Made by a program: the position numbers and the translations under genes. 64,000 bases of DNA, taken from positions 1,220,155 through 1,284,154 of the forward strand of contig NZ_JASBRG010000007.1 of NCBI RefSeq assembly GCF_029961145.1. Direction: 5' to 3'. Source of the DNA: Pinibacter soli. GTDB taxonomy: Bacteria; Bacteroidota; Bacteroidia; Chitinophagales; Chitinophagaceae. Below, in pieces: positions 1,719 to 59,739 of the stretch (its first letter is position 1; every line of letters begins with the position of its first letter). Below the pieces are notes generated by a model. The model searched no databases. It saw nothing but the letters and a program-made list of their open reading frames with translations, and was not told where the DNA came from.

Positions 1719-3950
1719 TTATTTTAATAGCGAAGATTTCTGTTTAGAAGCGTGATTCGCATCTGTATCAGGTTTGTCACTCATAATGAACTCCAGCGTA
1801 CCACCCGCCATAATCGCGGCATGATCGATATATGCTGCATCATAAGCTTTTCCATTCAGTAATACTTTTTGTATGTAAGGTTGGGTTGTGGCCCCTGCTG
1901 CTTTTACGGTGAACGTTTTTCCGCCAGGTAGTTTCAATGTTGCCTGCTCCACCAACGGGCTGCCGAAAACATATCTCGTATCGGCCGGAAATACAGGATA
2001 GAAGCCCAATGCAGAGAAAATATACCACGCAGACATTTGTCCGCAGTCTTCATTTCCAATGATGCCATCAGGTTGATCGTGGTACATATCTTTCATGATA
2101 TGCCTTACTGTTTCCGCGGTTTTCCATGGGCGGCCACCAAAGGCATACAGATATGCGATATGGTGGCTAGGCTCGTTGCCATGTGCATATTGGCCAATAG
2201 TTCCAGTGAGATCTGCCAACCCTTTTTCATCAGCGGTTGTTTCCAGAGCAAACATTGTATCGAGTCTGGCATTAAACATTTGTTCACCACCAAGTAACGA
2301 TATCAATCCTTTCACATCCTGCGGCACGAGCCAAAGGTATTGCCAGGCATTGCCTTCTGCGTAAATGGTATTGTTGGCTTTCAGTGCGTTAAAATCAGGG
2401 GCCCGTTCACCATTGTCAAGTTTACCCCGGAAGAATTGCGTGGTTGAATCGAAATATTTTTTGTAGTTCAATGCACGTTTAGAAAAATATTCAAACTCGT
2501 TTTGTTTGCTCAAGGCTTTTGCCATTAAGGCTATGCTGCCATCTCCAATAGCGTATTCAAGACCTTTGGCAACAGAGCGTCTTTCTTTATCTGCTGGAAT
2601 TGCCGTAAATGTTTTCACGCACATCATTCCCAATGTATCTGATGCAGACGTTCCTTTGATTGCATTGAAAGCCCTTTCAGCATCGAATCCTTTTATACCT
2701 TTCAAATAAGCTTCTGCAATTACCTGCCTGCTCGCAATGCCCACCATGGTTCCTGTTTCCCAACCTTCCAAATGCCATTGCGGTAACAAACCTTTTTGAT
2801 CGTAAATGGCAAGCATCGAGTTCACCATGTCCGCAGTTCTTTCCGGTTGTGTGATTGTGTACAATGGATGCACGGCACGGTACGTGTCCCAAAGCGAGAA
2901 CACGCTATAGTTGGCAAATTGCGCATGTTTATATACTTGCTTATCTGCACCACGATAATCGCCATTGTGATCGTTGAACAAAGAAGGATCGATCATTGTA
3001 TGAAATAATGCAGTGTAAAAAATGCGTTTAACTTTTTCGGACGGCGTGTTGATGACCATCTTCGAAAGTTCTTTGTTCCATTTTGCCTTTGCTTCTGCTA
3101 CAACTTTATCGAGGTCCCAATGCGGAATTTCCGCGTTGATATTTGCCAGTGCATTTTCACAGCTTACGGGAGAAATACCAACTTTTAATTTGAGTGTCTT
3201 GGGCGCTTTATCAAAACTGATCAAGCCCTTAATGGCTTTACCTTTTCCGCTATCACCTTGCAGCAGTTTACTATCTTCATAAACTGTAAAATGTTCCAGC
3301 GAGTCGGATGAGCGAATGGCAAAAAATATCAGTTGTTCCTTCGCCCATCCCTTTGAAAAACGATAACCTTCCAAAGTGTATTGATCAACCCTTCTGATGT
3401 ACGTTTCAGCACTTTGATCATTAATTCCTTCTTTAAGATCAATTATAACATGGGCTTCTTTGTTTTGCGGAAATTGATATTGATGGAACCCTACTCTTTC
3501 TGTTGCTGCGAGTTCAACCTGAATATTGGAACCATCAAGCTTTACAGAATAATAACCCGGCAGCACCTTTTCATTTTTATGAGAATAATGTGCGCCGTAA
3601 CCCTTCTGATATTCTTTTTCTGTTGCCTTGTCAGTTCTTATTTCTCCGACATAAGGCATCACCAAAATATCTCCAAGGTCGCCAATGCCCGTACCGCTCA
3701 AATGCATGTGAGCAAAGCCTGTTACGATACTGTCGCCATAATTGTAACCCGAGCACCAATCCCATCCTTTAAAAAAATTGGAAGGACCCAACTGTACCGC
3801 GCCAAAAGGAACGCTCGCACCAACAAATACATGCCCATGACCACCTGAGCCAATATAAGGATCAACGTATTTGGTCAAATCCTGCGCTTGCGATTGTTGG
3901 GTTATGCAAACGAATGAAATAATGTTTATAAAAAAAATCAACCTCTTCAT
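1719..3950 (-). CDS. GH92 alpha-mannosidase (first copy)
   Basis: A 743-residue exported exo-acting alpha-mannosidase of family GH92, which is calcium dependent and inverting. The signal peptide ends at SQAQ, and the mature protein opens with the family hallmark DPYIGSGGHGHVFVG. The N-terminal beta-sandwich spans about 25-250 and the (alpha/alpha)6 catalytic domain about 270-700. The proposed acid is Glu532 in EGNAWQYLW. The proposed base loop is GNEDCGQMSAWYIFSALGFY with Asp635. The substrate loop reads AHGNEPSHHIAYLY. Length and motifs are complete, so the enzyme should be active. It sits downstream of the GH71/99-like gene in the same orientation, separated by 263 bases holding a palindromic element. 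GH92 next to a GH99-like gene is typical of loci that trim yeast-type or N-glycan mannan; the exact linkage is inferred only. Confidence 0.94.
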   Translation of the reverse strand: MKRLIFFINIISFVCITQQSQAQDLTKYVDPYIGSGGHGHVFVGASVPFGAVQLGPSNFFKGWDWCSGYNYGDSIVTGFAHMHLSGTGIGDLGDILVMPYVGEIRTDKATEKEYQKGYGAHYSHKNEKVLPGYYSVKLDGSNIQVELAATERVGFHQYQFPQNKEAHVIIDLKEGINDQSAETYIRRVDQYTLEGYRFSKGWAKEQLIFFAIRSSDSLEHFTVYEDSKLLQGDSGKGKAIKGLISFDKAPKTLKLKVGISPVSCENALANINAEIPHWDLDKVVAEAKAKWNKELSKMVINTPSEKVKRIFYTALFHTMIDPSLFNDHNGDYRGADKQVYKHAQFANYSVFSLWDTYRAVHPLYTITQPERTADMVNSMLAIYDQKGLLPQWHLEGWETGTMVGIASRQVIAEAYLKGIKGFDAERAFNAIKGTSASDTLGMMCVKTFTAIPADKERRSVAKGLEYAIGDGSIALMAKALSKQNEFEYFSKRALNYKKYFDSTTQFFRGKLDNGERAPDFNALKANNTIYAEGNAWQYLWLVPQDVKGLISLLGGEQMFNARLDTMFALETTADEKGLADLTGTIGQYAHGNEPSHHIAYLYAFGGRPWKTAETVRHIMKDMYHDQPDGIIGNEDCGQMSAWYIFSALGFYPVFPADTRYVFGSPLVEQATLKLPGGKTFTVKAAGATTQPYIQKVLLNGKAYDAAYIDHAAIMAGGTLEFIMSDKPDTDANHASKQKSSLLK

Positions 3951-4213: not shown

Positions 4214-5488
4214 TTACTTCTTACCAAAACTCTCTGCTTGCTGTACCGGTTGCGTTTCACTAAACGGTATCTCCTTGCGCAACATTTTTGCGGCCATACC
4301 GGTAAGAAACAAATAATGATCTTCGGGAACGCCGTCTTCAAATGTTACAAAACTGCTTGCACCAACCGGCGGATTCTTTGACACTTTAAAGATTGCTGTG
4401 CCTTCATCTATTTCATCAAACATTGCGACGTATAACATTTCTGCGCCGCTTTCTAAAGCTCCTGAAATCTGCTTCCAATAGAATTCTCCTCTATTCCGTG
4501 GCATCTGGTTTTGGGGACTTTTGTTGTACATGTTGTGCCAGCTAAATCCGGGATAAACCACGGGTGCATAGTCAATTTTGTTTTGTTTGCACCATTCTAC
4601 ATCTCCAGCTATGTGTTGCTTGAACGCGGGATAGTTTTGTTCATTATATCTTCCTACAAACCATGGATGAACAATGTCAGCCCTTTTTATTACTTCTGTC
4701 AAATGCGGGTCTTTGACTGCGTCCTTATCCAGGTCTCGCCAATAAGTGGGCACACCGAGCATGATGGAACAACCGCCATACTCTTTGTCATTTTGCAGAA
4801 AGTCCATCATCTTTTCAATATCCTTCAACCCGTACGAACGGCCAGGAAAACCTACGCCCCAAAGGGCTACAAGAGGTTTACCATTATGATACAGGTATGT
4901 TTGTTTTTTACCTCTTGTAGTCAGTTGCAAACTATCAACCAGTTTTTTAAAATCGTTGATCACCACATCAGCATCTCCTTCATGCATGCCGGAGAGATCG
5001 TACATAATTGCAATAGCACGATGATATTTTTTGGCTGCATTCAATGCATTACCTAATACAGTGTTATTATGTCGCAGGCTTACCGGGCTTTTCACATTGC
5101 TTACAAATCTTTGTACGAATACGCCATCAATACCGTACTCCTTCATCCATTTGAAGTGAAGATCAACAGTGGATGCATCATAAGAACTGAACAATACTGC
5201 TGCACTGCTATCTGCAAGGCGAAAAGGAGTTTTGTATGTTTTCTTATATTCTGCAGTTGCCGGCCAGAGATCGACCTTACAATTGCCGGGTTCAAATTTT
5301 CCTTTGGCTGCATAGTGGTTCCACCCACGTCCGGCACCGTCATCAGGAGCATTGAACCAACCCTGATATCCCGCCATTACAAGTCCCTTGTACGAAGTAA
5401 ACGCAGAGGTTTTGCTATGTTTATGTTGTGCGTTCACACTTGTAGTAAACAATATTGCAAATCCAAGTATGTATTTAAATTGTCGCAT
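4214..5488 (-). CDS. GH71/99-like glycoside hydrolase, possible endo-alpha-mannanase
   Basis: A 424-residue secreted protein with signal peptide MRQFKYILGFAILFTTSVNA. The opening KGLVMAGYQGWFNAPDDGAG is the signature of the family annotated as glycoside hydrolase 71/99-like. A TIM-barrel pattern follows (YGIDGVFVQRF, HRAIAIMYDLSG, PLVALWGVGFPG, DIVHPWFVGRY). Near the C terminus FDEIDEGTAIF places Glu359 and Glu362 with the E-x-x-E spacing of the GH99 catalytic pair. GH99 members are endo-alpha-1,2-mannosidases or mannanases, and GH71 members cut alpha-1,3-glucan. The flanking GH92 genes favour mannan, but the subfamily has little biochemistry, so the activity is inferred. The stop codon lies at the start of an A/T tandem stretch. 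Confidence 0.83.
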   Translation of the reverse strand: MRQFKYILGFAILFTTSVNAQHKHSKTSAFTSYKGLVMAGYQGWFNAPDDGAGRGWNHYAAKGKFEPGNCKVDLWPATAEYKKTYKTPFRLADSSAAVLFSSYDASTVDLHFKWMKEYGIDGVFVQRFVSNVKSPVSLRHNNTVLGNALNAAKKYHRAIAIMYDLSGMHEGDADVVINDFKKLVDSLQLTTRGKKQTYLYHNGKPLVALWGVGFPGRSYGLKDIEKMMDFLQNDKEYGGCSIMLGVPTYWRDLDKDAVKDPHLTEVIKRADIVHPWFVGRYNEQNYPAFKQHIAGDVEWCKQNKIDYAPVVYPGFSWHNMYNKSPQNQMPRNRGEFYWKQISGALESGAEMLYVAMFDEIDEGTAIFKVSKNPPVGASSFVTFEDGVPEDHYLFLTGMAAKMLRKEIPFSETQPVQQAESFGKK

Positions 5489-5520: not shown

Positions 5521-7758
5521 CTAAAATCCTGCCCTCTCACCTGTGCCCCAGCGTTTGTTTGGCTTGGGTCCCATTTCCAATTCCAGCGTACCGCCGTCCA
5601 TCAATTGCTGATGTGTGAACCACGGCGTGTTGATGGCTTGCCCATTCAGTTTTGCACTCTGGATGTATTTGTTTACAACCGATGAATTGTTTGCAATTAC
5701 AGTGAATTGTTTTCCGTTTTGAAGATCAATTGTTGACTTCGTAAACAAAGGACTACCGATTATATATGTAGGAACACCGGGCGTTACAGGATAAAAGCCA
5801 AGTGATGAGAACACAACGAAAGCAGACATGCCGCCACCATCTTCATCACCGGGAATGCCGAAAATATTGTCTTTGAACCATGTGCTTAACAGGAAGCGAA
5901 CACGTTTCTGTGTCTTCCACGGACTCGATGTAAAGTTGTATAAGTAAGGTATGTGAAAGCTTGGTTCGTTGCCCATTGAGTACTGCCCTACAAGACCTGT
6001 TGCATCAGGAAACTTGTACCACATCTCACTTTTACTTCTTCCCAACGGCTCTCTGAACAATTGATCGAGTCTGTTTTCAAACTCATTTTTCCCACCCATC
6101 AAGCTCATAAGACCGCTGATGTCATGCTGCACCTGCCACATGTAGGTCCAGCCGTTGTTTTCGTCGTAGTAGTCTCTGCCGCCTTTGCCGCCGTCAAATT
6201 TTGGATCGATGTTTATCCAATTTCCCTGTGCATCTTTTGGCAAGAATATTTTCTGTTGCTTGTTCCAAAGTGTTTTATAGTTCGATGCCCTTGCCGCGAA
6301 TTTTGAATGATCTTTCTCTTTGCCCAGTGTTGCAGCCATTTCACTCACGGCCCAGTCATCATAGCTTGCACCGAGCGTTACAGCCACTGCCTGTCTTTTC
6401 TCAAACGAGTTCACAAGAGCAACTGTTTCTGTTTCTCCCGGTTTTAATCCAGGGAAAAATCCTTTTGTATAGTACACATCTTCAAGCTCTGTCTTAGGAC
6501 CGTTGCGCCATGGCAGCATAGTTGCCTGGGTCGCGTTTTTCAACATGCCTTCATATGCTTTTTCGATGTCAAAATTTTTCAAACCTTTTCGCACATCGTC
6601 GAGAAACATTACAGATGAATGAAAACCATTCATACAAGCATGGTCGCCGAAAAGCACCGGAAATGTTGGCATCCAGCCACTTTGCTCATACATTTTTACG
6701 TAGGAATTGAGCATATCTTCTTCCATGGAAGGGTTAAGAATTGCCCGCAAAGGATGGTGTGCCAAGTAGGTATCCCATGTCCAGTCATCTACATAAAAGG
6801 GTCTGTCTGTTGTATGTATCTTTTTATCGAATCCGCTGTAATATTTTCCATCCTCGGTAATATCAACCATTCGTTCATAACATCTGTACAACGCTGTATA
6901 GAACGAACGTTTCTGTGGCGTTGTGCCTCCCTGTACTTTTATTTGTCCAATCACTTTTTGCCATGCCAGTTGTGCATCATCAGCCAGTTGCTGAAAACCA
7001 GCTCCGTGCAATTCAGATTCATAATTCCTCTTCGCCTGATCTGCGCTTACAAATGAAACTGCATATTTCAACTCAATGGTATCGTTTGCACTGCCGCCGA
7101 AACTAACACTGGATTTGGTTTCGTCTACTTTATCAATTTTGCATTTTGTATTGAAGCTACCATACATGTAGATCTTTATATCGCCATGATAGGTTTCAGT
7201 TGCTGTGATCTCATTGTCTGAAATAAGATCCCAGGAGCTGCTTCCTGTGTTGTAATGTTCCAGTAGCAAACATTTCGTGTGCGTATTTGCAGGAAATGCA
7301 AAACGATAAATACCTGTTTTTTTACCCGGCGCAAATTCCACCGTAATACCGTTGTCGATAAGATATGTCGAGTAATACCATGGCCTTGTAATTTCAAGAT
7401 CATGATCGAATGTCATTTTCTTTTTCCAATCGTCTGCCGTTTTAGGCAATGCCAATGTGGGTTTCAGGGAGAATGCGATTCCCAGTCTATGCGAAACAAT
7501 GAGCAAAGGAAAGCTTGTTATCTGGTCCTCAATATAATCTGCACGAACCGGATACATTCTCATCATCTGGTTGGGTTGCTGAATCGTTGGCCTTGTTGGC
7601 TGCAGCAATTGTCCAACATTTCCAATGGTTGGATCTATGTAATCAAGATCGCTACTAACTTCTATCTTAACCTTCTTGTTGTCTTGCGCCTGCATGCTGT
7701 TGCACACAACCATACAGGCAAGTAAATATGTGATGGCCCTTATTTTCTTTATTGTCAT
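5521..7758 (-). CDS. GH92 alpha-mannosidase-like enzyme (second, divergent copy)
   Basis: The frame is open from 7833, but the ATG at 7758 is preferred. It gives the signal peptide MTIKKIRAITYLLACMVVCN ending at MQAQ and has AAAGG just upstream; the extra 25 residues of the longer form are polar and would bury the signal. The mature protein (about 745 residues) keeps the GH92 frame: YIDPTIGNVGQLLQPTRP at the N terminus, the acid-loop equivalent DENNGWTYMWQVQHD, and the base loop GDEDGGGMSAFVVFSSLGFY. It differs from the first copy in the substrate loop (SMGNEPSFHIPYLY, with Met and Phe where the first copy has His) and in its N-terminal motif. A different linkage or aglycone preference is therefore likely. 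It lies between the WbsX-like lipoprotein and the GH71/99-like gene. Confidence 0.9.
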   Translation of the reverse strand: MTIKKIRAITYLLACMVVCNSMQAQDNKKVKIEVSSDLDYIDPTIGNVGQLLQPTRPTIQQPNQMMRMYPVRADYIEDQITSFPLLIVSHRLGIAFSLKPTLALPKTADDWKKKMTFDHDLEITRPWYYSTYLIDNGITVEFAPGKKTGIYRFAFPANTHTKCLLLEHYNTGSSSWDLISDNEITATETYHGDIKIYMYGSFNTKCKIDKVDETKSSVSFGGSANDTIELKYAVSFVSADQAKRNYESELHGAGFQQLADDAQLAWQKVIGQIKVQGGTTPQKRSFYTALYRCYERMVDITEDGKYYSGFDKKIHTTDRPFYVDDWTWDTYLAHHPLRAILNPSMEEDMLNSYVKMYEQSGWMPTFPVLFGDHACMNGFHSSVMFLDDVRKGLKNFDIEKAYEGMLKNATQATMLPWRNGPKTELEDVYYTKGFFPGLKPGETETVALVNSFEKRQAVAVTLGASYDDWAVSEMAATLGKEKDHSKFAARASNYKTLWNKQQKIFLPKDAQGNWINIDPKFDGGKGGRDYYDENNGWTYMWQVQHDISGLMSLMGGKNEFENRLDQLFREPLGRSKSEMWYKFPDATGLVGQYSMGNEPSFHIPYLYNFTSSPWKTQKRVRFLLSTWFKDNIFGIPGDEDGGGMSAFVVFSSLGFYPVTPGVPTYIIGSPLFTKSTIDLQNGKQFTVIANNSSVVNKYIQSAKLNGQAINTPWFTHQQLMDGGTLELEMGPKPNKRWGTGERAGF

Positions 7759-7816
7759 AGCCTTTATAACGGAAGTCCTTTTTGATTGATTGAATTGGTT
7801 TCGTGCCATGACAAGA

Positions 7817-7854
7817 GCCTTCCGCTGCAACATAGCGCTGCAGCGGGCGAAGGC
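7817..7854 (-). promoter_or_regulatory. Stem-loop between surface lipoprotein gene and enzyme genes
   Basis: GCCTTC-CGCTGCA, a 9-base loop, then TGCAGCG-GGC-GAAGGC forms a 13-pair GC-rich hairpin with a three-base bulge. It lies about 78 bases past the lipoprotein stop and 59 bases before the GH92 start. No U-run follows, so a simple terminator is unlikely. It could be an mRNA-processing or stability element that separates the expression of the susCD part from the enzymes. The role is inferred. Confidence 0.45.
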
Positions 7855-7931: not shown

Positions 7932-9047
7932 CTACTTCTTAAACTCCTTTCTTGTCGTAGTGAGATATAAATCGCCGTAGCTTTTTGCAGATTCAAGTTG
8001 TGATGCACTGGCCCAGTCGTTCCATGAATCAAGCAGAATAAGCCTTGTGCTTTGATCTGCATTCATCTTTGCTACGTTACACAGTTGTTTGTAAAGTCTG
8101 CATGTATCGCTTCTTCCATAGAGAGGCTGGAGTGTGGTAGGTTGTGTAATTTTTTGGTTCCAACCTGGTGATACGCAAGGCACATAGCTTACACCCCAAT
8201 TATTATCCTGCCAGTATTGAACAGAATATTTCCAGTTCTCGTTCATCATTTGCGGAAGCAGGTAGAACCTGTCCCAATCGCTGATGTTTGTACTGAAAGA
8301 CTGATGTACCATAGCATCTACGCATTTTTGGAAACGGAAAGGATAACGTGCAGGCGGCGTCCATCTGTCCTGTTGGCCAACAATGTATAACTGCACACCT
8401 ACATCGTTTAGACGTTGTCTTAGCGTTGTATATATAGTTGCATTATCGTTTGAATAGAGAACCTGTGCGTTGTAGATGTACAGTAAAGTTTTACCGTTTA
8501 CTTTCATGTAGTTGGCATCCTGCATGTAAGGCACAAGCTTTAAGATGTCCTGGAAAAATTGCTCAAGTTTTACTTTATCATTCTCCAATGGTGTGGTCGT
8601 AGAAAGCCCGTATGTACCAGATTGCCAGTTATAAGCCAATGCCAGTTTCATTTTGTTTGCAGTATTGGCTTTCAGAAATGACCGCACTACATTTGAATCA
8701 ATTTTAAAGTTGTTGTAGTCACGACTGAATGATCTTATAGAGAACAGGAAGTAATCAATACCAGCGCTATTTGCCTGGTCAATGTGACCTGACATTACAT
8801 CTGGTGGCACCACGCCCGAAGGCATGCTGTATCTGCCTAATGTTGGCGTATCCGGTACGTTCACATTGAACGCGCCGAAGTAGTAGTACATGGCTCCTAC
8901 CGTGTAATCGTTCGTTACCGGAATTTCATTGATCTGGTAGTTCAGGAAATTATCGGCTGCCGTAGGCGCATCACTTTTCTTCACACAACCGATGAAGGCT
9001 AACAACGCTATCGCAATTATTGAGAGGCGAAAATATTTTGTTTGCAT
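7932..9047 (-). CDS. GH99/WbsX-like surface lipoprotein, catalytic motif degenerate; probable glycan-binding protein
   Basis: This 371-residue lipoprotein has a lipobox around Cys21 (LLAFIGC). The fold is GH99/WbsX-like: YTVGAMYYYFGAFN at the start, GIDYFLFSIRSFSRDYNNFK, TLLYIYNAQVLY, and a C-terminal block LLDSWNDWASASQLESAKSY ending with YGDLYL. In active relatives this last block reads N-E-W-x-E-G followed by LEP. Here the two acidic positions are Asp344 and Ser347, so normal GH99 chemistry looks lost. It follows susD by about 20 bases, the place usually held by a surface glycan-binding protein. The likely role is binding mannan at the cell surface and passing it to SusD/SusC. Residual or different catalysis cannot be excluded. 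Confidence 0.78.
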   Translation of the reverse strand: MQTKYFRLSIIAIALLAFIGCVKKSDAPTAADNFLNYQINEIPVTNDYTVGAMYYYFGAFNVNVPDTPTLGRYSMPSGVVPPDVMSGHIDQANSAGIDYFLFSIRSFSRDYNNFKIDSNVVRSFLKANTANKMKLALAYNWQSGTYGLSTTTPLENDKVKLEQFFQDILKLVPYMQDANYMKVNGKTLLYIYNAQVLYSNDNATIYTTLRQRLNDVGVQLYIVGQQDRWTPPARYPFRFQKCVDAMVHQSFSTNISDWDRFYLLPQMMNENWKYSVQYWQDNNWGVSYVPCVSPGWNQKITQPTTLQPLYGRSDTCRLYKQLCNVAKMNADQSTRLILLDSWNDWASASQLESAKSYGDLYLTTTRKEFKK

Positions 9048-9067: not shown

Positions 9068-10843
9068 TTATGGTTTATAGCTTGAAACAACTGTGTAAGT
9101 GAACCCGCTTGCTTTTGCTGCGGCACTTAACTCTTGTATTGTTTTGCCGTACCATTTTTGTACGAGTGAATAATCATATTGCGCAGGCACATCGTTCCAG
9201 TTAATGGTTACGTGCGGCTTCATAAACTTCAATGCAACAGTGTTGTTGATCGCCTCGGAAGTTGTTCCCACAAGGCCCAGCTGCGTCATGGCATCTGCAT
9301 ATCCATCAGGATTTAATGATACCAGGTTTGCCGGATAGAACATGCGGAACGGCACATCTGAATACAATGCTCCGGGAGATGCAGGATTGGTGTGCGGAGG
9401 AAAATTCAACGACCATGTTCTGCGTATCATGCACCATGCATCAAAGCCGCCATCAGGAAAATAATTCATCCATGCCTGTGCATATATTTTGTTGATGTCA
9501 CCATTTGGAATGTCTGCATTCGTAATACCAATGTAGTTTCTGAAAGTTTTACCCACAGAGCTCGTACCCCATTTTACACCATCTACTTGTTTGTAAGTAC
9601 TCGCCTGAGCCAACGTTAAACCCCATGAAACAAAGTTGGCATCGATGCCTGCATTATAATATGCATCGGGAGTTTGAGAACCTCCAAGACCAAGTTGCGC
9701 TGCTTCGGCTTTCAGAAACAATGTTTCTGCAAAACCCATGATCACCATCGGGCGCAAAGGATCGCTCCAAACTTTTGTCGTTACGTTGGAGAATGTATTG
9801 GCATTGCCTATCGGATCAACCTGGTTCGCCAATCCTGCTGTCCATCCCGATAATTTTGCAGTGGATTTTGGAATGCCCCAATGTGGAATCGGATAAGTTA
9901 CAATTCTTAATGAATCATCTGCAGTACTTGCAAGCGTATCTGTAAGTATGTATCGATCAGTTGCTTTTGCTACAGAGTCAAAGTACACATTGATCCTTGG
10001 ATCTTTGTAAGAACGAAGGAAGTCAAGCATGTAATCACTCATCTTTGGAAAAGAAATTCCTGTGGGTGCAGTTACATTAGCCTTGCCCGAATAACCAATG
10101 TAATAAGGATTCTGGTTACCGTTGGTAGTGTTGTCAAACTGGATCTTCGCCGCGTCTGCTTCGGAACCGATGAGGTTTGTTTCATCTGCCATTACTTCTT
10201 TCACGGCATTCAACGCTGTACTGCCAAGCAATAGCTGACTACGAAGTGCTATTTTCAAACGAAGGCTGTTCGCAAATTTCTTCCACTTCAACAGATCGCC
10301 GTTGTAGATCACATCGTACGGAAGTTTATCTGTTATTTTTGCAATGTTCATTTTCGCAGACGCATCTTTCAATGTGTTTAGAAGATTGGCATACACGGTA
10401 TCTTCTTTGTCGTACATGATGGAACTCATACGGTTCGGATCGTTTGCCTGGCTGGCAGCAATCGGCCCGTAAGCCCCTACCAGTATGGATTGTATGTAAG
10501 CCTTATAAATCCTTGCAATCTGCACTCTATTGTTGAATGCTGTATCATTGCCGTAATTATTAAGTATTTGCTGAAGATTGTTCAGAATGGTTACGTAAGA
10601 TGTTTGCCACATTACATCTGCACAATCATATCTTCCGGTTAGTGATACCCAGTTGGCATACTCCCAATATTTGTTTACAGGATATTGTGCGAGTATGGAA
10701 GGTGTTGCTTTGATCGCTGTATTCATGGAACCTTCCGGCATTACTTTTGTAAACTGCGTCGGGTCGGTATTGATATCTGTCATTTTAGAGCAGGCAGAGA
10801 ACATGGAGCCTGCGATGACCGCTATATAAAATATCTTTTTCAT
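9068..10843 (-). CDS. SusD/RagB-family nutrient-binding lipoprotein (SusD-like_2 type)
   Basis: The open frame begins at 10915, but the ATG at 10843 is chosen. It yields the lipoprotein signal MKKIFYIAVIAGSMFSAC with Cys18, and it lies 34 bases past the susC stop instead of overlapping it. The mature protein is about 574 residues. The alpha-helical TPR-like body shows the SusD-like_2 features: early INTDPTQF, AYIQSILVGAYGPIAASQA, YDKEDTVYANLLNTLKDA, KWKKFANSLRLKIALR, and EAAQLGLGG. SusD forms the lid of the SusC channel on the outer face of the outer membrane. The pair should bind and import mannan oligosaccharides, as inferred from the GH92 and GH99-like neighbours. Confidence 0.93.
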   Translation of the reverse strand: MKKIFYIAVIAGSMFSACSKMTDINTDPTQFTKVMPEGSMNTAIKATPSILAQYPVNKYWEYANWVSLTGRYDCADVMWQTSYVTILNNLQQILNNYGNDTAFNNRVQIARIYKAYIQSILVGAYGPIAASQANDPNRMSSIMYDKEDTVYANLLNTLKDASAKMNIAKITDKLPYDVIYNGDLLKWKKFANSLRLKIALRSQLLLGSTALNAVKEVMADETNLIGSEADAAKIQFDNTTNGNQNPYYIGYSGKANVTAPTGISFPKMSDYMLDFLRSYKDPRINVYFDSVAKATDRYILTDTLASTADDSLRIVTYPIPHWGIPKSTAKLSGWTAGLANQVDPIGNANTFSNVTTKVWSDPLRPMVIMGFAETLFLKAEAAQLGLGGSQTPDAYYNAGIDANFVSWGLTLAQASTYKQVDGVKWGTSSVGKTFRNYIGITNADIPNGDINKIYAQAWMNYFPDGGFDAWCMIRRTWSLNFPPHTNPASPGALYSDVPFRMFYPANLVSLNPDGYADAMTQLGLVGTTSEAINNTVALKFMKPHVTINWNDVPAQYDYSLVQKWYGKTIQELSAAAKASGFTYTVVSSYKP

Positions 10844-10877
10844 CTTTGTGTTTTTTAGTGCTCCCGTTGAAACTTTT

Positions 10878-13800
10878 TTAGAATGATAATTTAAGATCGA
10901 AGCCCCATGATGCATAAGGGAATGAGCCTCCGGCCTCTATACCCTGCGCATTGCCTGAGTTTGCTGCCGCTTCAGGATCGATACCCAGTGGAGTGTTTTT
11001 GTAGATCTGCCACAGGTTTCTTCCCACAAATGCGATGCGTGCATTCTGCATTTTGATTTTTGAAATGAGCTTCTTAGGGAATGTATAACCAACTATTACC
11101 TCGCTTATTCTGATGGAAGTTGCGTCATAAGTAAGAGATGGCACATCGTTCGTTACTTTGTCATTACCATTTACAAGTTGAGGATAGATCCATGCAGGCA
11201 AAGGATCTCCCGGAATAAGCCTGCCGTTTTTATCAAGCATTTGATTTCCTCTTGCATCCACTTTTGCCATGTACGCGTTCGGGTAGCGCAATCCTTTTAC
11301 ACGTGCAGAGTCTGCGTAACGTGTAACGGTTGTACCTACTGTCTGTCCAATATTTTTTCTTTCGTTATCGTTCTCACCTAAAATAGTTTGGCTCATTAAC
11401 CACTCATCTCTTCCTGCCAAACTTTGCACGGTCGTACCCTGAAACATTGCTCTTCCGTAAGTCGCAGAGTAAAGGCTACCACCGTATTTCACGGTTACCA
11501 TAACAGATGCATCAAATGCACCGTATCTGAAACTGTTGCTTAAAGACCCCAGCCATTTTGGTCTGAAGTTTCCTGCGAGTACATTGGGGTCTGCGATTGT
11601 ACGACCATTAGAACCTACGATGATCGTGTCACCTACCTTGTATGGCGCATTACCTCTCATGGTTCCATAAGGACGACCCACTTCAGCATACACTGTCACG
11701 CCAAGATTCGAGCCGAGGTTAACACTGTTCACACCTGGCACAAGGGATTTAACAAGGTTATCATTTTTAGAAAAGTTCGCCATCACATTCCATTGGAACT
11801 TCTTTGTTCTCACAGGAGTTGCGCCCAATGTTAACTCGATCCCTTTGTTTTGAATTTCACCGGCATTGAGTACGCGGGTATTGAAACCTGTTTCTTTCGG
11901 CGTGTTCACAGTAAGGATCTGGTTGGTCGTGTTTGATTTGTACACCGTAGCATTTAATGTAATTCTGTTGTTGAAAAATGCGAGATCAAGACCCAACTCT
12001 CTCGAAACAGTTTGCTCCGGTTTCAGATCAGGATTTTTCTTTTGATCCGTGTACACGAGATAAGGATTGTTTACATAGAAACCACCAAGGTTGTATGTTT
12101 CAAGCAACTGGTAGACATTCGGACTTCCGCCCACTTTCGCCCATGAAGCTCTGAACTTACCGGATGAGAGGATATCATTTCTGCGAATGAAATGAGAGAA
12201 CAAAAAGCTACCACCTACTGAAGGATAGAAGAAATCATTTTTCCCTTTCGGCAATGTGGATGACCATTCGTTTCTTCCTGTAACATCGAGGAACAAATAA
12301 TCTCTGAAACCCAATGTTGCAGAACCATACACAGATGCAGATTTTCTTCTTCCCCAGAACTCAGATGCAGAAGGCGCAATCTTCGAGTTGCTGATCGCCG
12401 GCATATCATGCACCAGCAAAGAACCGACAGAAGCAGTGCGAGAACGTCCATTAAAATTGTTATAGTTTACCCCTACCACGCCATTGATGTTAAAGTCGGA
12501 ATTAATCCTTTTGTTGTAGATCAATTGTCCCTCATAGTTCCAGCTTTGATCGGAGCTCATGTTGTTGGTGTAGCTGCCCGTTGGCGTTTTCTTTCCACCT
12601 AACTCATTGTATATATAATATTCACCGAAATTCAAATCACCTGCGATCAACGCTCTTGCTTTCAGCCAACTGAAGATGTCAACATTCAATGAAGTACTTC
12701 CAATGAAACGATTGTGTGCATCTGCGTTTTCGTTCTCATATATTGACCAGTAAGGGTTTTCTGTGTCCGACAATAATTGCTGGCCATTGCTTCCTGTAAA
12801 AATCAGTGCATTTCCATCAGCATCTTTATAAGGATACAAACTTGCCATGTCGATACTGCGTGGCTGATAAACAAATAACACAAGAGGGTTGCCTGGTGTC
12901 AGGTTTCTCGTCATCCTGTTCTTTGTTTTATCATTGGTGTACATCACCTTCGCATCCGCCGTTACTTTTGAATTTAATTTCCGCGAAGCATAAAAAGAAA
13001 GGTTGTGCTTCGTTTTCAGGTTGATGTTGTCCACCACGTCATTGCTTTTTGTAAAGCCGTATGACAAACGGAATGTCGATACCTGGTCAGATTTATTGAT
13101 CGCAATATTTGTTGTATTGACGTAAGGCGACTGGTAGAAGTCCTTCACGTTATTTGCCTGCGGCCAATAACCGTGCGGTTTGCCATCATAAGTATTGTAC
13201 GGCTGCCCCAGCATTGGCATACCCCAGCTTTGCATGTTGATCGATCCCATGTTAACGGCGTTGGTCCCGGGAATTATCTTATCTCCACCTTGTGCGAATC
13301 GTCCATTGGAACCTTCACCATATACATTTTGGTAATCCGGCCACTCGGTAACTGTGTAGGTCTGATAGTTTTGATTTAATGACACCCCGAAATTCTTGTC
13401 ACCTATTTTTCCTTTTTTAGTAGTGATGAGGATGGCGCCATTCGCGGCCTGCGATCCATAAAGCGCTGCTGCGTTTGGCCCTTTCAACACTTCCATGGAT
13501 TCAATGTCATCCGGGTTAAGATCCTGTGCCGCGTTACCGTAGTCAAGGTTGCCATTTTCACCTGTCTTGTTAGAAATGATCACGCCATCTACCACCCATA
13601 TCGGCTGGTTGCTTCCGGTAAGTGAATTTTCCCCGCGCAGTATTAAGCGTGATGAGCTGCCCGGCTGTCCGGTACCCGTCACTTGCAAACCTGCTACTTT
13701 ACCGGCAAGGGTATTAGACAAGTTGATATCCCTTGCTTCGGTCATGTTGTTCGGATCAACCGACTGGCTCGAGTAAGGAACAGATCTTGCCTTCCGCGTT

Positions 13801-14147
13801 TGACCCAGGGCAGAGATCACGACGGCGTCCATTGTGGAGGCGCTCGCCGTGAGTGCTATTTGTATATATCCTGTCTTTGCGTCTACTTCTACTTCTTTGG
13901 AAAGATAGCCGGTCATCGTTACGGCCAGGGTTGTTTTGCCAACCGCATTAATATTTAATTGAAATGATCCGTCGTCCTTAGTAGCGGCTCCAATTCTGGT
14001 ACCTTTTATAAGGATACTTGCATTCGCCAGCGGAACATTTTTGTCGTCAATAATTTTACCTTTTATTGGTACTGACTGACCATAAGAAAGGAGGCTTAAG
14101 AAAATTAAGAGGGCCATCAGGAATGGCAGTTTTAATCGCAATCGCAT
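10878..14147 (-). CDS. SusC/RagA-family TonB-dependent outer-membrane transporter
   Basis: A 1089-residue outer-membrane channel with signal peptide ending at LLSYGQ. A carboxypeptidase-regulatory-like domain follows at about 28-105 (IKGKIIDDKNVPLANASILI). The SusC junction motif is of the MDAVVISALGQTRK class, then a plug domain (GKVAGLQVTGTGQPGSS, IWVVDGVII, DIESMEVLKGPNAAALYGSQ), and a 22-strand barrel that ends in the outer-membrane sorting signal FDLKLSF. It is the first gene of the left locus, with susD directly behind it. Substrate import is driven by TonB. Divergent transcription from the membrane regulator at 14632 suggests control by that protein. Confidence 0.96.
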   Translation of the reverse strand: MRLRLKLPFLMALLIFLSLLSYGQSVPIKGKIIDDKNVPLANASILIKGTRIGAATKDDGSFQLNINAVGKTTLAVTMTGYLSKEVEVDAKTGYIQIALTASASTMDAVVISALGQTRKARSVPYSSQSVDPNNMTEARDINLSNTLAGKVAGLQVTGTGQPGSSSRLILRGENSLTGSNQPIWVVDGVIISNKTGENGNLDYGNAAQDLNPDDIESMEVLKGPNAAALYGSQAANGAILITTKKGKIGDKNFGVSLNQNYQTYTVTEWPDYQNVYGEGSNGRFAQGGDKIIPGTNAVNMGSINMQSWGMPMLGQPYNTYDGKPHGYWPQANNVKDFYQSPYVNTTNIAINKSDQVSTFRLSYGFTKSNDVVDNINLKTKHNLSFYASRKLNSKVTADAKVMYTNDKTKNRMTRNLTPGNPLVLFVYQPRSIDMASLYPYKDADGNALIFTGSNGQQLLSDTENPYWSIYENENADAHNRFIGSTSLNVDIFSWLKARALIAGDLNFGEYYIYNELGGKKTPTGSYTNNMSSDQSWNYEGQLIYNKRINSDFNINGVVGVNYNNFNGRSRTASVGSLLVHDMPAISNSKIAPSASEFWGRRKSASVYGSATLGFRDYLFLDVTGRNEWSSTLPKGKNDFFYPSVGGSFLFSHFIRRNDILSSGKFRASWAKVGGSPNVYQLLETYNLGGFYVNNPYLVYTDQKKNPDLKPEQTVSRELGLDLAFFNNRITLNATVYKSNTTNQILTVNTPKETGFNTRVLNAGEIQNKGIELTLGATPVRTKKFQWNVMANFSKNDNLVKSLVPGVNSVNLGSNLGVTVYAEVGRPYGTMRGNAPYKVGDTIIVGSNGRTIADPNVLAGNFRPKWLGSLSNSFRYGAFDASVMVTVKYGGSLYSATYGRAMFQGTTVQSLAGRDEWLMSQTILGENDNERKNIGQTVGTTVTRYADSARVKGLRYPNAYMAKVDARGNQMLDKNGRLIPGDPLPAWIYPQLVNGNDKVTNDVPSLTYDATSIRISEVIVGYTFPKKLISKIKMQNARIAFVGRNLWQIYKNTPLGIDPEAAANSGNAQGIEAGGSFPYASWGFDLKLSF

Positions 14148-14498
14148 AAATAATAGTTTTGGAATTGAAGAAAACCTAATGGGCTAAAAGTATGATCCTC
14201 AATCTAATATTGCATTAATAAAACATTAATGATAGTTCATTTCGCTTATTAAGTTTTTAAAAGTATGTTTTTGGGAAAAACTTTAGCTGCAGTTTCATTA
14301 TTTTTTGTTCTTCAAGTCAAAAACTAATAACAAGAGGTAGAAAATTTAATTGAATATGCTAAATTGCAACACCTGACCAAATGGCTTTTGAGAATTTGAA
14401 CTCGTATAAGAAGATCGCTTGCGTTTCTACACTAACTAATAAAGTAATTGGCAAGAATTTACATCGCTCCGGATGTGGGTCTTAACTAAATACGGCAA

Positions 14499-14631: not shown

Positions 14632-17277
14632 ATGAATAGCCGGCTTGCCATTAATGATCTGCTCAGAAGGAGTTTCCTGTATCCCGCTGTTCTATCATTA
14701 CTTATACTGCTCTCTCTATCTTCTGCTTCATTCGCACAATATGGCCTTCAATTTGCGAGTCGCGATGCCGACCCCGAAAAAAGGACATCTTTAAATATTA
14801 CGCCAGACAAACCCGTTTGCGTTTCTCAAAAGCTCGATCTCTCATTTGAACTGAGTTTTACGCCCGGCATCACAGACAATTTTGGTTATGCTTTCCGGCT
14901 GGTGAACGATAAAAAGCAAAACCTCGACATGCTATATGACGAGGCCAAAAAAAGTTTTACCATCGTTTTTGGAGATGCATATACTAATATAAGTGTGCCG
15001 ATGCTTTATGGCGACGTAGTGAACCGGTGGGTAAAATTTCACTTATTACTCGACTTTACCCATCAAACCATTGCACTGTACTGCGATTACAAACTTGTAC
15101 AAACCAGCAAAGTTTCATTTAAGGAAAATTGTTTCAACTTATACTTTGGCGCAACTACAGATCCTTACTTCAAATCGTCCGATGTTATTCCCATGCGATT
15201 GAGAAATATCGCATTGAATGTGGATGACCGGGAAAAATCTTTCTGGCCACTGAATGAATCATCCGGCAACCAGGCTTTGGATAGCATTTCCGGAAAAAAA
15301 GCAATAGTACAGAATGAGCATTGGCTAAAGCCGAAACATTCAAGCTGGCAACTGAGGAGCAATCGTAGCTTCAAAAGCTGGGTGAGCGCAGGTTTTGATC
15401 CTGTGCATGAACTGGTGTATATAACGGGGCAGGACTCCATATATATATACTCTGCAAAAACTTCGGCGCTGACAGCGGTGCATCTTTCTGAAAAGCATGA
15501 TTTGCTGCCGGGAAGCCAAACGATCTATAATCCATTCAGCGATCATCTGTACAATTTTTATCCTGATGAACACGACATTGCGGCATATGATGCGCAGACT
15601 CAACATTGGGAAAAAAATTTTAACGCCGCTCCCCTTACAGCCTACTGGCAGGTGAACAAATTCTTTTCGCGCCATGACAGTTCATTGTATTTCATGGCAG
15701 GTTATGGTCAGTTGAGATACAAGAATCTTGTACAGCGCTATCATCTTGCTACAAAAAAATGGGATACGGTAAAAACTGCCGGCGAACATTTCAACCCAAG
15801 ATACCTTTGTGCACTTGGCTCTACGTCAAACGGCGACACGGCATATATTCTCGGTGGCTATGGAAGCAAAGACGGCGACCAGTTGCTTAATCCCCAATTT
15901 TACTATGATCTGACAATGTATGATGTAAAGACATCTACATTCAAAAAGATTTATACACTTAAAGAACCTGCGGAGCCATTCGTGTTTTCCAACTCAATGG
16001 TAATTGACAAGGACGGCAAACATTACTATGCACTGATCAATCCAAAGGATCAGCGCAACACGCAATTACAACTGATAAAGGGTTCGCTGGAAAAACCGGA
16101 GTATGAGCTGATCGGCTCTTCATTTCCCTTCACATTCGTTGATGTTAAGTCGATGGCCAATGTATATTATTGTGACGCTTCCAAAGTAATGCTGGCCGTG
16201 ACTTTGTATACAGATAAAGATGCCAATGTTACCGACGTAAAAATATACAGCATCAATTTCCCCCCGAGCGGCATTGCAACGCCTGAGGTTGCGGCACCGG
16301 CAAATACCTCGAAAAAATATATTGTTGTGTTGGCTGCAATTGGTTTGCTTGTCATTGCTTTCGTTGTTTACAAACTGAGATTATTTAGAAGAAAAACTAT
16401 TGCGCAACCTGTTGAAAGAAGACCCGCGCCTGTGGAAACGGCGATGCCAACGACAACGACAACTGTCAATCCGGCCCCGGCCACTCCCGTCCCAACTCCA
16501 GCCATTCCCGTGATTACTAATGAATATGAGGATATCACGAATGAACAACAAAACAGAGCCGGCGCACACATTTACCTCTTCGGAAATTTTGAAGTGGTAG
16601 CGAGTAACGGCGAAAATATCACAAGATTGTTTACGCCGTTGTTGAAAGAGTTGTTTCTATTATTGTGCATTCATTCTTTAAAATACAACAAAGGTGTATC
16701 GCCGGAAAAACTGATCGAAATATTGTGGCACACAAAGGACACGAAAGATGCGATCAACAACAGGTCGGTGAATATTGCAAAGCTCAAAAGCATTCTTGAA
16801 AAAATTGAGGACTGTACTTTGCAAAAAGAATTTGGTTACTGGAAACTAACATTTGACAGAGATAAGCTGTATATCGATCTTGACCACTTCCTTCAATTGT
16901 TTGCTGAGCGCACGCTTGACAACAAGAGCATCAATGAACTGATCGCGATTGTACAGCGGGGTCCTTTTCTTCCGCAAACTTCTTATCAATGGGCAGACAG
17001 CTTTAAATCAGAGATATCAAGTCTTACGATAGATGCGTTACTGAAATACTGTCAATATCTTTCTTTGCCAGACAATGCAGAAAGAGTGATCAATATTTGC
17101 AACGCCATTTTTGCGTTTGATGAATTGAACGAAAATGCATTGCAGTTGAAATGTAAGAGCCTTGTATCGCTCGGCCGCCATACGCTTGCAAAGGAAGCTT
17201 TCGAAAAATTTGCCTCGAAGTATAAAGAGATCTATGCTGAGGACTATGAAACCAATTATACAAAGATGATTTCGTAG
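14632..17277 (+). CDS. Membrane-spanning transcriptional regulator: lectin-like + Kelch sensor, TM, winged-helix/BTAD output
   Basis: This 881-residue protein starts with a signal sequence ending at SASFAQ. Residues about 40-200 resemble a LamG/concanavalin domain (LDLSFELSFTPG, NRWVKFHLLLDF, TIALYCDYKLVQTSKVSFK). Residues about 240-540 contain Kelch-like propeller blades (LVQRYHLATKKWDTV, DTAYILGGYGSKDGD, DLTMYDVKTSTFKKI). One membrane helix lies at 564-583 (IVVLAAIGLLVIAFVVYKL), followed by RRK and a Pro/Thr-rich linker. The cytoplasmic part has an OmpR/SARP-type winged helix from about 644 (YLFGNFEVVASNGENITRLF, LLKELFLLL, INNRSVNIAKLKSIL) and a BTAD-like helical domain at about 750-880. 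No histidine kinase or receiver domain is present. It is divergent from the mannan locus, so it is the obvious candidate regulator. Signal transfer across one helix is inferred. Confidence 0.82.
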   Translation: MNSRLAINDLLRRSFLYPAVLSLLILLSLSSASFAQYGLQFASRDADPEKRTSLNITPDKPVCVSQKLDLSFELSFTPGITDNFGYAFRLVNDKKQNLDMLYDEAKKSFTIVFGDAYTNISVPMLYGDVVNRWVKFHLLLDFTHQTIALYCDYKLVQTSKVSFKENCFNLYFGATTDPYFKSSDVIPMRLRNIALNVDDREKSFWPLNESSGNQALDSISGKKAIVQNEHWLKPKHSSWQLRSNRSFKSWVSAGFDPVHELVYITGQDSIYIYSAKTSALTAVHLSEKHDLLPGSQTIYNPFSDHLYNFYPDEHDIAAYDAQTQHWEKNFNAAPLTAYWQVNKFFSRHDSSLYFMAGYGQLRYKNLVQRYHLATKKWDTVKTAGEHFNPRYLCALGSTSNGDTAYILGGYGSKDGDQLLNPQFYYDLTMYDVKTSTFKKIYTLKEPAEPFVFSNSMVIDKDGKHYYALINPKDQRNTQLQLIKGSLEKPEYELIGSSFPFTFVDVKSMANVYYCDASKVMLAVTLYTDKDANVTDVKIYSINFPPSGIATPEVAAPANTSKKYIVVLAAIGLLVIAFVVYKLRLFRRKTIAQPVERRPAPVETAMPTTTTTVNPAPATPVPTPAIPVITNEYEDITNEQQNRAGAHIYLFGNFEVVASNGENITRLFTPLLKELFLLLCIHSLKYNKGVSPEKLIEILWHTKDTKDAINNRSVNIAKLKSILEKIEDCTLQKEFGYWKLTFDRDKLYIDLDHFLQLFAERTLDNKSINELIAIVQRGPFLPQTSYQWADSFKSEISSLTIDALLKYCQYLSLPDNAERVINICNAIFAFDELNENALQLKCKSLVSLGRHTLAKEAFEKFASKYKEIYAEDYETNYTKMIS

Positions 17278-40233: not shown

Positions 40234-43200
40234 CTAGAAGGATAAGTTTACATTAAATCCAAAACGACGTGCTGTTGTTGATTGCAAACCAGTTTTGCTG
40301 TTCAGCGATCTGTCAGAGATGTTGAATCCTGATGCATACTGATCAAGATCAATGTCCTTCCGCTCGGCGAAGTACAGCAGGTTTCTTCCCACCAGTGAAA
40401 CGGAAGCACCTTTCAGGAATTTGCCATGGAACTTGTCAGCCGGGAAAGTATAACCCAACACTACCTCTCTTAATTTCAGATAAGAACGACTGATCAAAAA
40501 CGGCTCATCAAATTTTGCATACAAGCTGTTTTGTACATAGTTCTGAACAGTTACCGGAGTTTTGTTTGCTTCAAACTTTAATTGATCCAAATTAGTGATC
40601 GCGCCATTTTCATATACTGGTGTACCTGAAGTAATAACAACACCTTTACCTACGTAGGCAGGTTTTGCATCAACAGTGCTCAGGCTTGTACTTTTCCATT
40701 CGTTCAAACGTGCAGTGCCATAATCGCCTTGTACCAAATCAAGTGCATTACCAGAGTTCATTGACTGCGCAAATACGTAGTCGTATATTTTACCACCTAC
40801 ACGGCCATCAAACTGAAAACTGAAAGAGAAATTTTTGTAGTTAAAACGGTTATTGATACCAAACACATAGTCAGGGTTTGCGTAACCAAGAAGTTGCTTG
40901 TTATCTGTGCCAGTTTTAGGTTCAAGCAGCAAGCCACTTGAGTTATAGATCGGCTGTCCATCAGGAGCGCGAAAAACTTTGTAACCATAGAATGCATCCA
41001 ATCTGTCGCCAATGTGGTAGTTGTGATCGTTGATCGTTACTGTTTTCTCATTCTGATAAATGTCTCTCAGTTTTTCTTTATAAGTTGACCAGTTCACCAT
41101 GACATCCCATGAGAAATCTTTTGTTCTGATGGGATTGCCGATTAATGCAACTTCAAAACCATCTTTTTGAGAAGTAATACCATTTACGTTGTGCGAATAA
41201 TAACCTGTAGAAGAGGCCACGGGCAAAGGATAGATCAAAGGACCGTTGATTGTTCTAAAGTATGTGAAATCGAGTCCCAGTCTGTTTTTCAGGAATTTAA
41301 TATCCAAACCTGTTTCGTATGATTTGATATCGAAGCTCTGCAGGCTCTTGTTTGCCAGCGTATTTGAGTAAGTAACGGCCTGCGTGTTGTTGTAGTAGCT
41401 TGCGCCATTGTACGCCATCTGATTGGTGTATGAAGGACCATCATATGAAGTGTACAATTCTGATCCATATCCAAGCAAGCCACTGTTAAGCGTTTGCGGG
41501 TTTCCAACAGATGTTGTTAAAGCGTTGTAAGACGAACCAATTGTAGAGTTTGTCAAGCCACCTTTTACGTCAGCGTAAGAACCACGGATCTTCAGGAAGG
41601 AAATAGCTTCAGGAAGCTTTGTGTAGTCAGATATAACAGAGCTTACACCCACTGAAGGATAGAAAATTGTTTGCTGCCCTTCAGGCAAAGTGGATGTTTT
41701 ATCTACACGGCCGGTTGCAGAAACGTTGATATAATTTTTATAACAAAGATCAACAGACGCGTAACCGCTTATCACTTGCATGTTTGAACCGAATGTATAA
41801 GCTTTGATGGGGTTTTTGGAGTTAGACAAATTGTATACGTTGGCAAAATTCAACTGATAAGTGGAAAGCCAGTCAGAATTGTATCTGAATGTTCTGATGC
41901 TTGATCCGCCCACTGCTGTCAGGTTAAAACCTTTACCAAGATTTTTGTTGTAGGTCGCTAGCAGGTCGGTGTTGTTTTCAATCAACATGCGGTTATCTTC
42001 ACGATAGTCTCCGTTCCATATGTTGTAAAGCGTACCAACTTTTTGAAAATAATAACCGCTGTAGTAAGCGTTCAGATTGGTGGATGGCGGCACTTTCTCT
42101 GTGCGCAACTGGTTCCAGGTAGTCACCTGTGAACGAAGGCTGATGTTAAGATCTTTATTGACCTTGTAAGTAAATTTCAGATAACCGTACACATCAGTTT
42201 TGTAGTGACCGTGCAACCATTCGTGCGCAACAAAGTAAGGATTGTTTTCACGACCATACTCTGCGTAATACTGTACCAATCCTGGTCTGCCGGTTGGACC
42301 TTTCCAGTAATCTTTCATATCATCCGATGCCCAGCTTGCAGAACCGTACACTTTAAACATGTAAGGATAACTGTTTGGACCATAGCTTACATCGGGAATG
42401 TTTGGTGTGTATTGTGCGTTGAAGTTAAGATTGGCTTCCATGCGCAATTTTTGTGAAAAATTATAACCAGCGTTGATGTTCAGGTTATCGATGTTCAACT
42501 TTGTGTTTGGCGCCATCCCTTTTTGGTAAGTGTGAGAATATGACATACGCAGATCATATTTATCACCAGATGCAGATACAGCGATGTTATTGGTTGACAG
42601 CAAGCCTGTCTCCATGAAGTTTTCAAAATTATTCACACCGCGAGCGATCCATGGAGTGCCTGTGCGCTGTCCTGAGGTTGGATCAATCGGGCTGTCATAT
42701 TGTTTTACCGGCTGACCTTCAAAGCGAGGGCCCCAGATGTTTGAACGGCGATAAGAACCATCAAGATCATACAGATCATTACCATATGCATACTTGTAGT
42801 TGTTACCATAACCATATTCTGTTTGATTTTTAGGCAACGCTGTGTAACCTTTTTCAAACATGGTGCTTGAATTAAACTCTACTGTATATCCCCTTCTATC
42901 TTTACTGCCTTTTTTTGTAGTCACCAAAATGGCTCCGTTCTGTCCTCTGAAACCATACAATGCCGCGGCGTTTGCGCCTTTCAACACGGTATAGCTTTCG
43001 ATATCATCTGCACTCATGTTCCATGTATCTGAGTTTACCGGTACACCATCGACAACAAATAACAAATCTGTACTACCGCGCAATACAACCTGCGGACGGC
43101 CAAGCATCTCTGCTGATGCACCAACGGTAAGACCGGCAACTTTACCTGTTAAAGAGTTGATCGCGTTTGGTTCGCGGGCTTTCACCAGGTCAGCGCCCTT

Positions 43201-58479: not shown

Positions 58480-58558
58480 CGGTCGAAAAAAAGTTTAAAA
58501 ATATTTTCCATTTTCCGTAGGGTACCGTTTTCATTTTGGTACTTATATATTGAAGCGC

Positions 58559-59635: not shown

Positions 59636-59739
59636 TTCAACCTTAAAATTTTAAACCATTCATCTTTTACGAGATGTGAGGTCGATGCAAGACATCGGCT
59701 AAAGGGAATCATTTTGTTCATTTTAAACTGCAAAGCCAT

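Follow-up and report, generated by a model that had tools for sequence, protein, structure and literature searches.

In the 64,000-nucleotide stretch of Pinibacter soli analysed here (the window; assembly GCF_029961145.1, contig NZ_JASBRG010000007.1, positions 1,220,155 to 1,284,154 of the forward strand), the gene at 14632-17277 is predicted to encode a membrane-spanning regulator, in which an exported sensor part is followed by a membrane helix and a cytoplasmic DNA-binding module of the SARP type, and which lies divergent from a susC/susD operon. This protein is probably a one-component transmembrane SARP activator that works like SusR with a different output domain. The fold, SARP homology, domain order, predicted topology, gene linkage and operator pattern described below were obtained by computation. 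A first-pass annotation of the same DNA had read the protein as a concanavalin-like domain, a Kelch-like propeller, a membrane helix and a winged helix plus BTAD-like domain, and this order is borne out by Pfam and by two AlphaFold2 models. That earlier reading is supported because the fold, the SARP assignment and the susC link were each tested and hold, and the operator repeats point in the same direction.

Domain architecture and the SARP-type output module

The open reading frame starts with an ATG at 14632, its stop codon ends at 17277, and copies of likewise 881 residues in two genus mates (91% and 88% identity) are divergent from the same susC. The gene and its predicted parts are as follows.

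14632..17277, plus strand: transmembrane SARP-type regulator gene, 881 residues (open reading frame, Pfam, orthologues, AlphaFold2 model)
14632..14736, plus strand: predicted signal peptide, residues ~1-35 (model helix 4-29; cleavage site placed by eye)
14746..15261, plus strand: predicted concanavalin-like beta sandwich, residues ~39-210 (model strands 53-205; Laminin_G_3 in relatives)
15262..16260, plus strand: Kelch-type beta propeller, residues ~211-543 (Pfam Kelch_6/Kelch_4; profile search of PDB sequences; Foldseek)
16306..16389, plus strand: predicted membrane helix, residues 559-586 (model helix; hydropathy and charge)
16390..16563, plus strand: predicted cytoplasmic linker rich in Thr and Pro, residues 587-644 (predicted local distance difference test score, pLDDT, <50 at 587-634)
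16564..16866, plus strand: predicted winged-helix DNA-binding domain, residues 645-745 (AlphaFold2 models, fold search)
16867..17274, plus strand: predicted BTAD-like helical domain, residues 746-881 (C-terminal model, fold search, hhalign)

The full-length AlphaFold2 model, built on a 71-row alignment (mean pLDDT 87; predicted template modelling score, pTM, 0.60), contains sandwich strands at 53-205, propeller strands at 214-542 and a helix at 559-586, followed by a low-confidence stretch at 587-634, a winged-helix topology at 645-741 and a helical bundle at 749-880. Within the propeller of the window protein, Pfam recognizes Kelch_6 at 349-380 and Kelch_4 at 397-440, both above cut-off, and the matches of the propeller in a profile search of PDB sequences are Kelch propellers. 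Foldseek also returned Kelch propellers, together with sialidases that combine a lectin domain and a propeller (TM score 0.17-0.18, root-mean-square deviation >20). The lectin-like reading is weaker than that of the other domains and is based on the model and on relatives: the window copy has no Pfam match for this fold, a PDB sequence search gave no match, and Laminin_G_3 is found at E<=0.05 in 11 of the 52 members of the sensor alignment (best 5.8e-6). Among six stretches for which mean column identity was measured, the recognition helix at 704-725 is best conserved (0.77) and the two sensor domains reach 0.51-0.53; the mean falls to 0.26 at residues 547-644, so that the linker region is poorly conserved. 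The linker has 58 residues in the window protein and 27-116 across the alignment, and is rich in Pro, Glu, Ala and Thr.

Membrane topology was assessed in 77 of the 83 family proteins, i.e., those of at least 800 residues, the six shorter ones being left out. In 75 of the 77, a hydrophobic segment is located beyond residue 300, in the central part or C-terminal half of the protein, and the C-terminal side of this segment should be cytoplasmic because the net charge is higher there in 71 of these 75 proteins (means 0.3 before and 4.1 after the segment). An N-terminal hydrophobic peak was found in 50/77 and a second peak in 22/75.

The assignment of the output module to the SARPs is derived from both structure and profile comparisons. 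Residues 644-881, modelled alone with AlphaFold2 (pLDDT 95.1, pTM 0.88), are predicted to adopt the SARP fold, an OmpR-type winged helix followed by a BTAD helical domain; the earlier reading had been staked on a winged helix at 644-745, and one is predicted at 645-741. A structure search with this model returned six PDB chains at E<=1e-3, exclusively of EmbR (2fez, 2ff4) and AfsR (8hvr, 8k60), in keeping with the SARP-type output that had been proposed. Furthermore, the C-terminal family profile also matches two soluble proteins with BTAD and TPR domains, a receiver-BTAD protein and an ATPase-TPR-BTAD protein, profile-matched proteins carry Pfam BTAD above cut-off, and hhalign of the family C-terminal part (66-row alignment) against those four SARP domains gave a probability of 98.9% (E 2.3e-17). 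The module occupies residues 645-881 of 881, and thus does not have the usual N-terminal placement, as in AfsR. A PhoB-like response-regulator reading was considered, as the best PDB sequence hit of the profile is PhoB-type (E 0.49) and 14 of the 66 members weakly match a VanR model; it was set aside in favour of a SARP, to which both the fold search and the BTAD half point. In the same phylum, a receiver-BTAD protein (L160:9427-10704) with a sub-threshold winged-helix match (Trans_reg_C) represents a SARP-type output in a response regulator.

Linkage to susC/susD loci and the predicted operator

The genes divergent from the regulator, identified by a profile scan, form a set of the alpha-mannan type as judged from established family activities.

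10878..14147, minus strand: susC (TonB-dependent transporter), divergent from the regulator
9068..10915, minus strand: susD-like_2 lipoprotein
7932..9047, minus strand: WbsX-type protein
5521..7833, minus strand: GH92 glycoside hydrolase (alpha-mannosidase by family)
4214..5488, minus strand: GH99-type glycoside hydrolase (endo-alpha-mannanase-type by family)
1719..3950, minus strand: GH92 glycoside hydrolase (alpha-mannosidase by family)

This arrangement is as first described, directly divergent from a mannan locus, and linkage to susC recurs in relatives. A scan for related loci kept the best 80 of 99 matches, i.e., 79 loci, and favours close relatives; the loci are mostly of Chitinophagaceae, plus other Bacteroidota (record titles include Chitinophaga, Niastella, Puia, Emticicia, Labilibaculum, Draconibacterium, Maribellus and Bacteroides salyersiae), and some are cut by contig ends. 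Linkage was counted in 83 loci (the window, L021, L028, L029 and L031-L109), 64 of which contain SusC or SusD in the available stretch; several of the 19 with neither are on short contigs. Of the 83 loci, 43 carry susC no more than 1 kb from the regulator: 28 of these genes are divergent, 14 follow the regulator on its own strand, and that of L078 immediately precedes it on this strand; 21 of 40 clusters at 60% identity have susC at this distance. The rough chance of susC being an immediate neighbour is 3% (80 susC-size frames, assuming 5,000 genes). When only the 58 loci with 8 kb or more of sequence on either side are considered, SusC or SusD is encoded in the flank of 52 and susC is no further than 1 kb away in 35; the conserved susC link on which the earlier reading depended holds among these loci. 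GH92 genes occur in 42/83 loci, and 32/83 contain a relative of the GH99-type gene of the window; GH92 is also the commonest family in a sample of 93 neighbour proteins (10/93), and 4 of the 11 full-length GH92 genes of the P. soli genome are within its two regulator loci.

The intergenic region between the regulator and susC contains a predicted operator.

14202..14230, minus strand: predicted operator, a strict ATTAATG pair and a degenerate third copy

Read towards susC, the site is ATTAATGttttATTAATGcaatATTAGAT (plus strand 14202-14230). The strict repeats ATTAATG at 14224-14230 and 14213-14219 are spaced by 11 bp; at the next 11-bp step (14202-14208), a third copy is degenerate and reads ATTAGAT. 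The strict pair ends 66 bp and the degenerate copy 54 bp before the susC start, and the strict pair is identical in both genus-mate orthologues.

The family pattern was derived from a discovery set from 40 loci, made up of 42 intergenic regions that precede regulator-linked susC genes. When this set was scanned for direct repeats with no motif specified in advance, the mean peaked at an 11-bp step (7.07/9 versus 6.23 in plain letter shuffles) and was next highest at 12 bp (6.81 versus 6.27). In 43 units, taken from one region in each cluster, the repeat reads RTTAAY and the next base is mostly C (65%) or G (19%). Chains with a minimum of two RTTAAY at 11 or 12 bp are present in the last 300 bp upstream of 33 of the 42 regulator-linked susC genes and of none of 40 unrelated susC genes in the same P. 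soli genome (Fisher p 5e-15, kinship ignored); these controls were taken roughly by rank from 80 susC-size frames, excluding the window copy, and do not include the susC of L219 discussed below. In 200 dinucleotide shuffles, chains were found in 0.23 of 42 regions on average, with a maximum of 2. Chains of at least three copies were present in 18/42, and the shorter core TTAA distinguished the two sets less sharply (38/42 versus 8/40). The 42 regions fall into 20 clusters, 18 of which have a chain-bearing member and 13 a majority of such members, and in the 33 regions the last repeat ends at a median of 70 bp before the susC start. In an earlier control, composed of 22 susC genes from the same loci that do not adjoin the regulator and thus possibly containing real targets, RTTAAY pairs were found at 11 bp in 1/22 and at 12 bp in 4/22.

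A held-out set comprised 43 loci outside the discovery set, in which gaps of more than 20 bp and control regions of at least 60 bp were used. Of the 31 gaps separating the regulator from the next gene on its strand, 19 contain a chain, versus 12 of 153 other intergenic regions (Fisher p 2e-10, kinship ignored), several of these 12 control regions preceding GH92 or susC genes; in 23 of the 43 loci a chain is present on either side of the regulator. Kinship with discovery loci is common among the 43; if only clusters that contain no discovery locus are counted, a chain is present in 12 of 21 gaps, representing 8 of 13 clusters. Taking all loci together, a site lies in an intergenic region touching the regulator in 56/83 loci versus 16 of 356 other regions. 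A search behind the repeats resolved no fixed promoter element.

Proposed mechanism and alternative explanations

The exported lectin-like and propeller part would sense an oligosaccharide in the periplasm, probably an alpha-mannan fragment; recurrent GH92 and GH99-type neighbours hint at this ligand, and we infer the term glycan sensor from the fold and the neighbourhood. The signal would cross through the single membrane helix to the linker-tethered cytoplasmic SARP module, which may sit side by side on approximately three RTTAAYC-type repeats, 11-12 bp apart, upstream of susC and, while still membrane-bound, recruit RNA polymerase to the mannan operon. Here DNA binding and activation are suggested by analogy with SARPs. 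It is likely that proteins of this kind constitute a further class of regulators of polysaccharide utilization loci (PULs), namely transmembrane SARPs with lectin-propeller or lectin-only sensors, present in several Bacteroidota orders, often at alpha-mannoside loci, and binding cooperatively, as membrane-anchored proteins, to multi-copy RTTAAYC sites.

Several results weigh against this mechanism and its generality. The window site itself has two strict copies only, and the related loci are not independent, so that the Fisher values are overstated. Genome-wide counts show no enrichment of the two-copy pattern (22 places versus 31 for the reversed pattern). No strict site lies beside the regulator gene in 27 of the 83 loci, including that of the P. 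soli paralogue, where an RTTAAY pair is found instead between two divergent GH92 genes (L021:6225-6242); the genus mates have a pair at the corresponding GH92-GH92 place (L024:10140, L025:14367). Among the 13 distant family loci of the phylum search, a site lies beside the regulator gene in four (L149, L150, L151 and L154), in L149 in a gap between convergent genes and in L151 (7349-11073) as four copies of RTTAAY, spaced by 12 bp, between the two regulator genes of a tandem pair, and a SusC-profile match was found in the available stretch of three; the susC link is thus strong among the relatives kept by the scan and weak among more distant ones. All four Persicobacter loci have SusC and no strict site outside coding regions, the Parabacteroides locus has neither SusC in the available stretch nor a strict site outside coding regions, and a search of these loci for another 11- or 12-bp repeat gave degenerate matches only. 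Finally, a susC elsewhere in the P. soli genome (L219:9422-12658) is preceded by three RTTAAY pairs (L219:8980-9148, contig 7), and no regulator of this family was found within the 19.5 kb read; this susC is possibly a target in trans or an orphan locus.

Other explanations concern the signal, the form in which the output module acts and the sign of its effect. Rather than a free sugar, the exported part might sense a protein partner or the state of the transporter, e.g., loaded SusC/SusD, as would suit the close susC linkage and the Kelch propellers among the PDB matches, which are mostly protein-binding; 19 of the 83 members lack both SusC and SusD in the available stretch (several on short contigs) and the recurrent neighbour is GH92, and this explanation appears improbable. 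Regulated proteolysis close to the membrane, triggered by the ligand and releasing the SARP module, is another alternative that we consider unlikely. In its favour, the poorly conserved Pro/Glu/Ala/Thr-rich linker follows the membrane helix, and a freed module could occupy several adjacent repeats without membrane constraint; against it, SusR, as described in PMC3878776, binds its promoters as a membrane protein.

Repression of the divergent locus, with release by the ligand, is very unlikely. The location of the operator, between divergent genes, would allow a repressor to act as well, and the position of the sites relative to the start codon does not decide between activator and repressor, but SARPs are described as activators (PMC10936776). 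A chance neighbourhood, in which the protein would be a conserved membrane protein whose winged helix is degenerate and would have no link to the locus, seems extremely improbable in view of the linkage, operator and fold results and of the recognition-helix stretch, which is the best conserved of those measured. A point in its favour, and a further one against the SARP assignment, is that Pfam BTAD (PF03704) is below cut-off in the window protein (12.7 and 15.7 bits versus 22.1); at E<=0.1 it is found in 7 of 66 members (best E 0.0006). Because the fold and profile tests both point to a SARP, we read the sub-threshold score as a limit of the Pfam model, and the family as a divergent SARP branch.

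A one-component transmembrane SARP activator would provide a candidate regulator and operator for many susC/susD and GH92 loci in Chitinophagaceae and some other Bacteroidota. It would also equip a membrane receptor with a SARP output, a type of module familiar mainly from antibiotic control in Streptomyces, and would raise the question of how several neighbouring DNA sites can be filled by a protein that is tethered.

Relation to known regulators and distribution of the family

Like the SARPs AfsR, EmbR and PimR, the regulator combines a winged helix with a BTAD domain and has a direct-repeat pattern at an 11-bp step; SARP operators, as far as described in the available texts, are direct repeats at 11 or 22 bp bound by monomers side by side (PMC5930380, PMC10936776). 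Unlike them, it carries this module at the C-terminus, after the exported lectin-propeller sensor and the membrane helix, and the family belongs to Bacteroidota and glycan-uptake loci, with an AT-rich RTTAAY repeat followed mostly by C or G. SusR is described as a membrane protein that has its sensor in the periplasm and binds DNA through a C-terminal domain for which no clear relatives are known, and its motifs are direct repeats 67 or 77 bp apart (PMC3878776). Judged by that description, the two proteins are alike in being a single membrane-spanning protein beside susC/susD with a periplasmic sensor and a cytoplasmic C-terminal DNA-binding domain (here predicted), and they differ in the sensor, apparently in the output domain, and in the 11-bp repeat spacing. 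An origin of the output domain from SusR was not supported: hhalign gave a probability of 0.2% against a DUF6377 protein that adjoins GH97 in Bacteroides salyersiae and, as a putative SusR-like representative, stood in for SusR itself.

The regulator resembles hybrid two-component systems and pairs of extracytoplasmic function (ECF) sigma and anti-sigma factors in the local control of susC/susD operons. Unlike these, and as the first-pass annotation had stated, it has no kinase, receiver or sigma partner, since no such domain was matched in the regulator (Pfam) or in ten neighbours scanned between 1719 and 24674, the gene at 21512 being excluded. ToxR/CadC-type regulators share the membrane-spanning one-component logic and an OmpR-type winged helix; in the window regulator the DNA-binding domain is C-terminal, which is the opposite order, and a BTAD domain is added. 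The Bacteroidota-specific PUL regulators listed in the available texts of two papers of 2013 and 2023 are SusR-like, hybrid two-component and ECF regulators (PMC3878776, PMC10316084), and a census of transmembrane transcription regulators does not mention SARP, BTAD or Kelch in its main text as available (PMC10269533); among the papers listed from one open-access library, no description of a Kelch/SARP/BTAD regulator class of this kind in Bacteroidota was found. The distinct signalling design claimed in the first-pass annotation thus stands in part: the sensor and apparently the output domain differ from those of SusR, but the overall one-protein logic with a periplasmic sensor is already known from SusR, as described in the accessible part of PMC3878776, and what appears to be new is the combination of this sensor with a SARP-type output domain.

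The P. soli genome has one paralogue (41% identity), and each of the two genus mates has an orthologue and two further copies. At E<=1e-20, the full profile matches 28 of 294 genomes of the taxonomic family; the C-terminal profile at E<=0.001 matches 23 of 392 genomes across the phylum, some matches being other BTAD proteins. Briefly, 20 stretches of the phylum search comprise 13 with family members (strong C-terminal match) and seven with other BTAD proteins or with weak or no matches. A plasmid search returned five records, four of Persicobacter and one of Parabacteroides, and two of the Persicobacter relatives are annotated as hypothetical. The same output domain is joined to a LamG sensor without a Kelch match in L152:7971-10088 and L153:9041-11437 (by Pfam), and to a sensor named LamG-like in the record in Parabacteroides distasonis (L223:6066-8744); L153 also has a weak PI-PLC-X match. 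The main alignment included 70 of the 79 loci, leaving out L035, L092 and L095 (each with a single stop in the stretch matched, where frames of 868, 758 and 855 residues are nevertheless open), L070 and L075 (broken frame), and L031, L042, L057 and L068 (near-duplicates). Two loci (L034, L060) are from contigs of metagenome-assembled genomes titled Williamsia, an actinobacterium, with SusC/SusD alongside, and look like mislabelled records.

Elsewhere in the window, the regulator is followed on its 3' side by a lactonase/phosphoesterase-like gene, an AHSA1 gene and an ArsR-type regulator gene (at 20656). A sigma-factor-like gene and a larger gene, then susC, are found at 57895-62766 and appear by eye to be an ECF/anti-sigma locus, and an AraC-like gene, also assigned by eye (43960-45087), adjoins the susC at 40234-43596.

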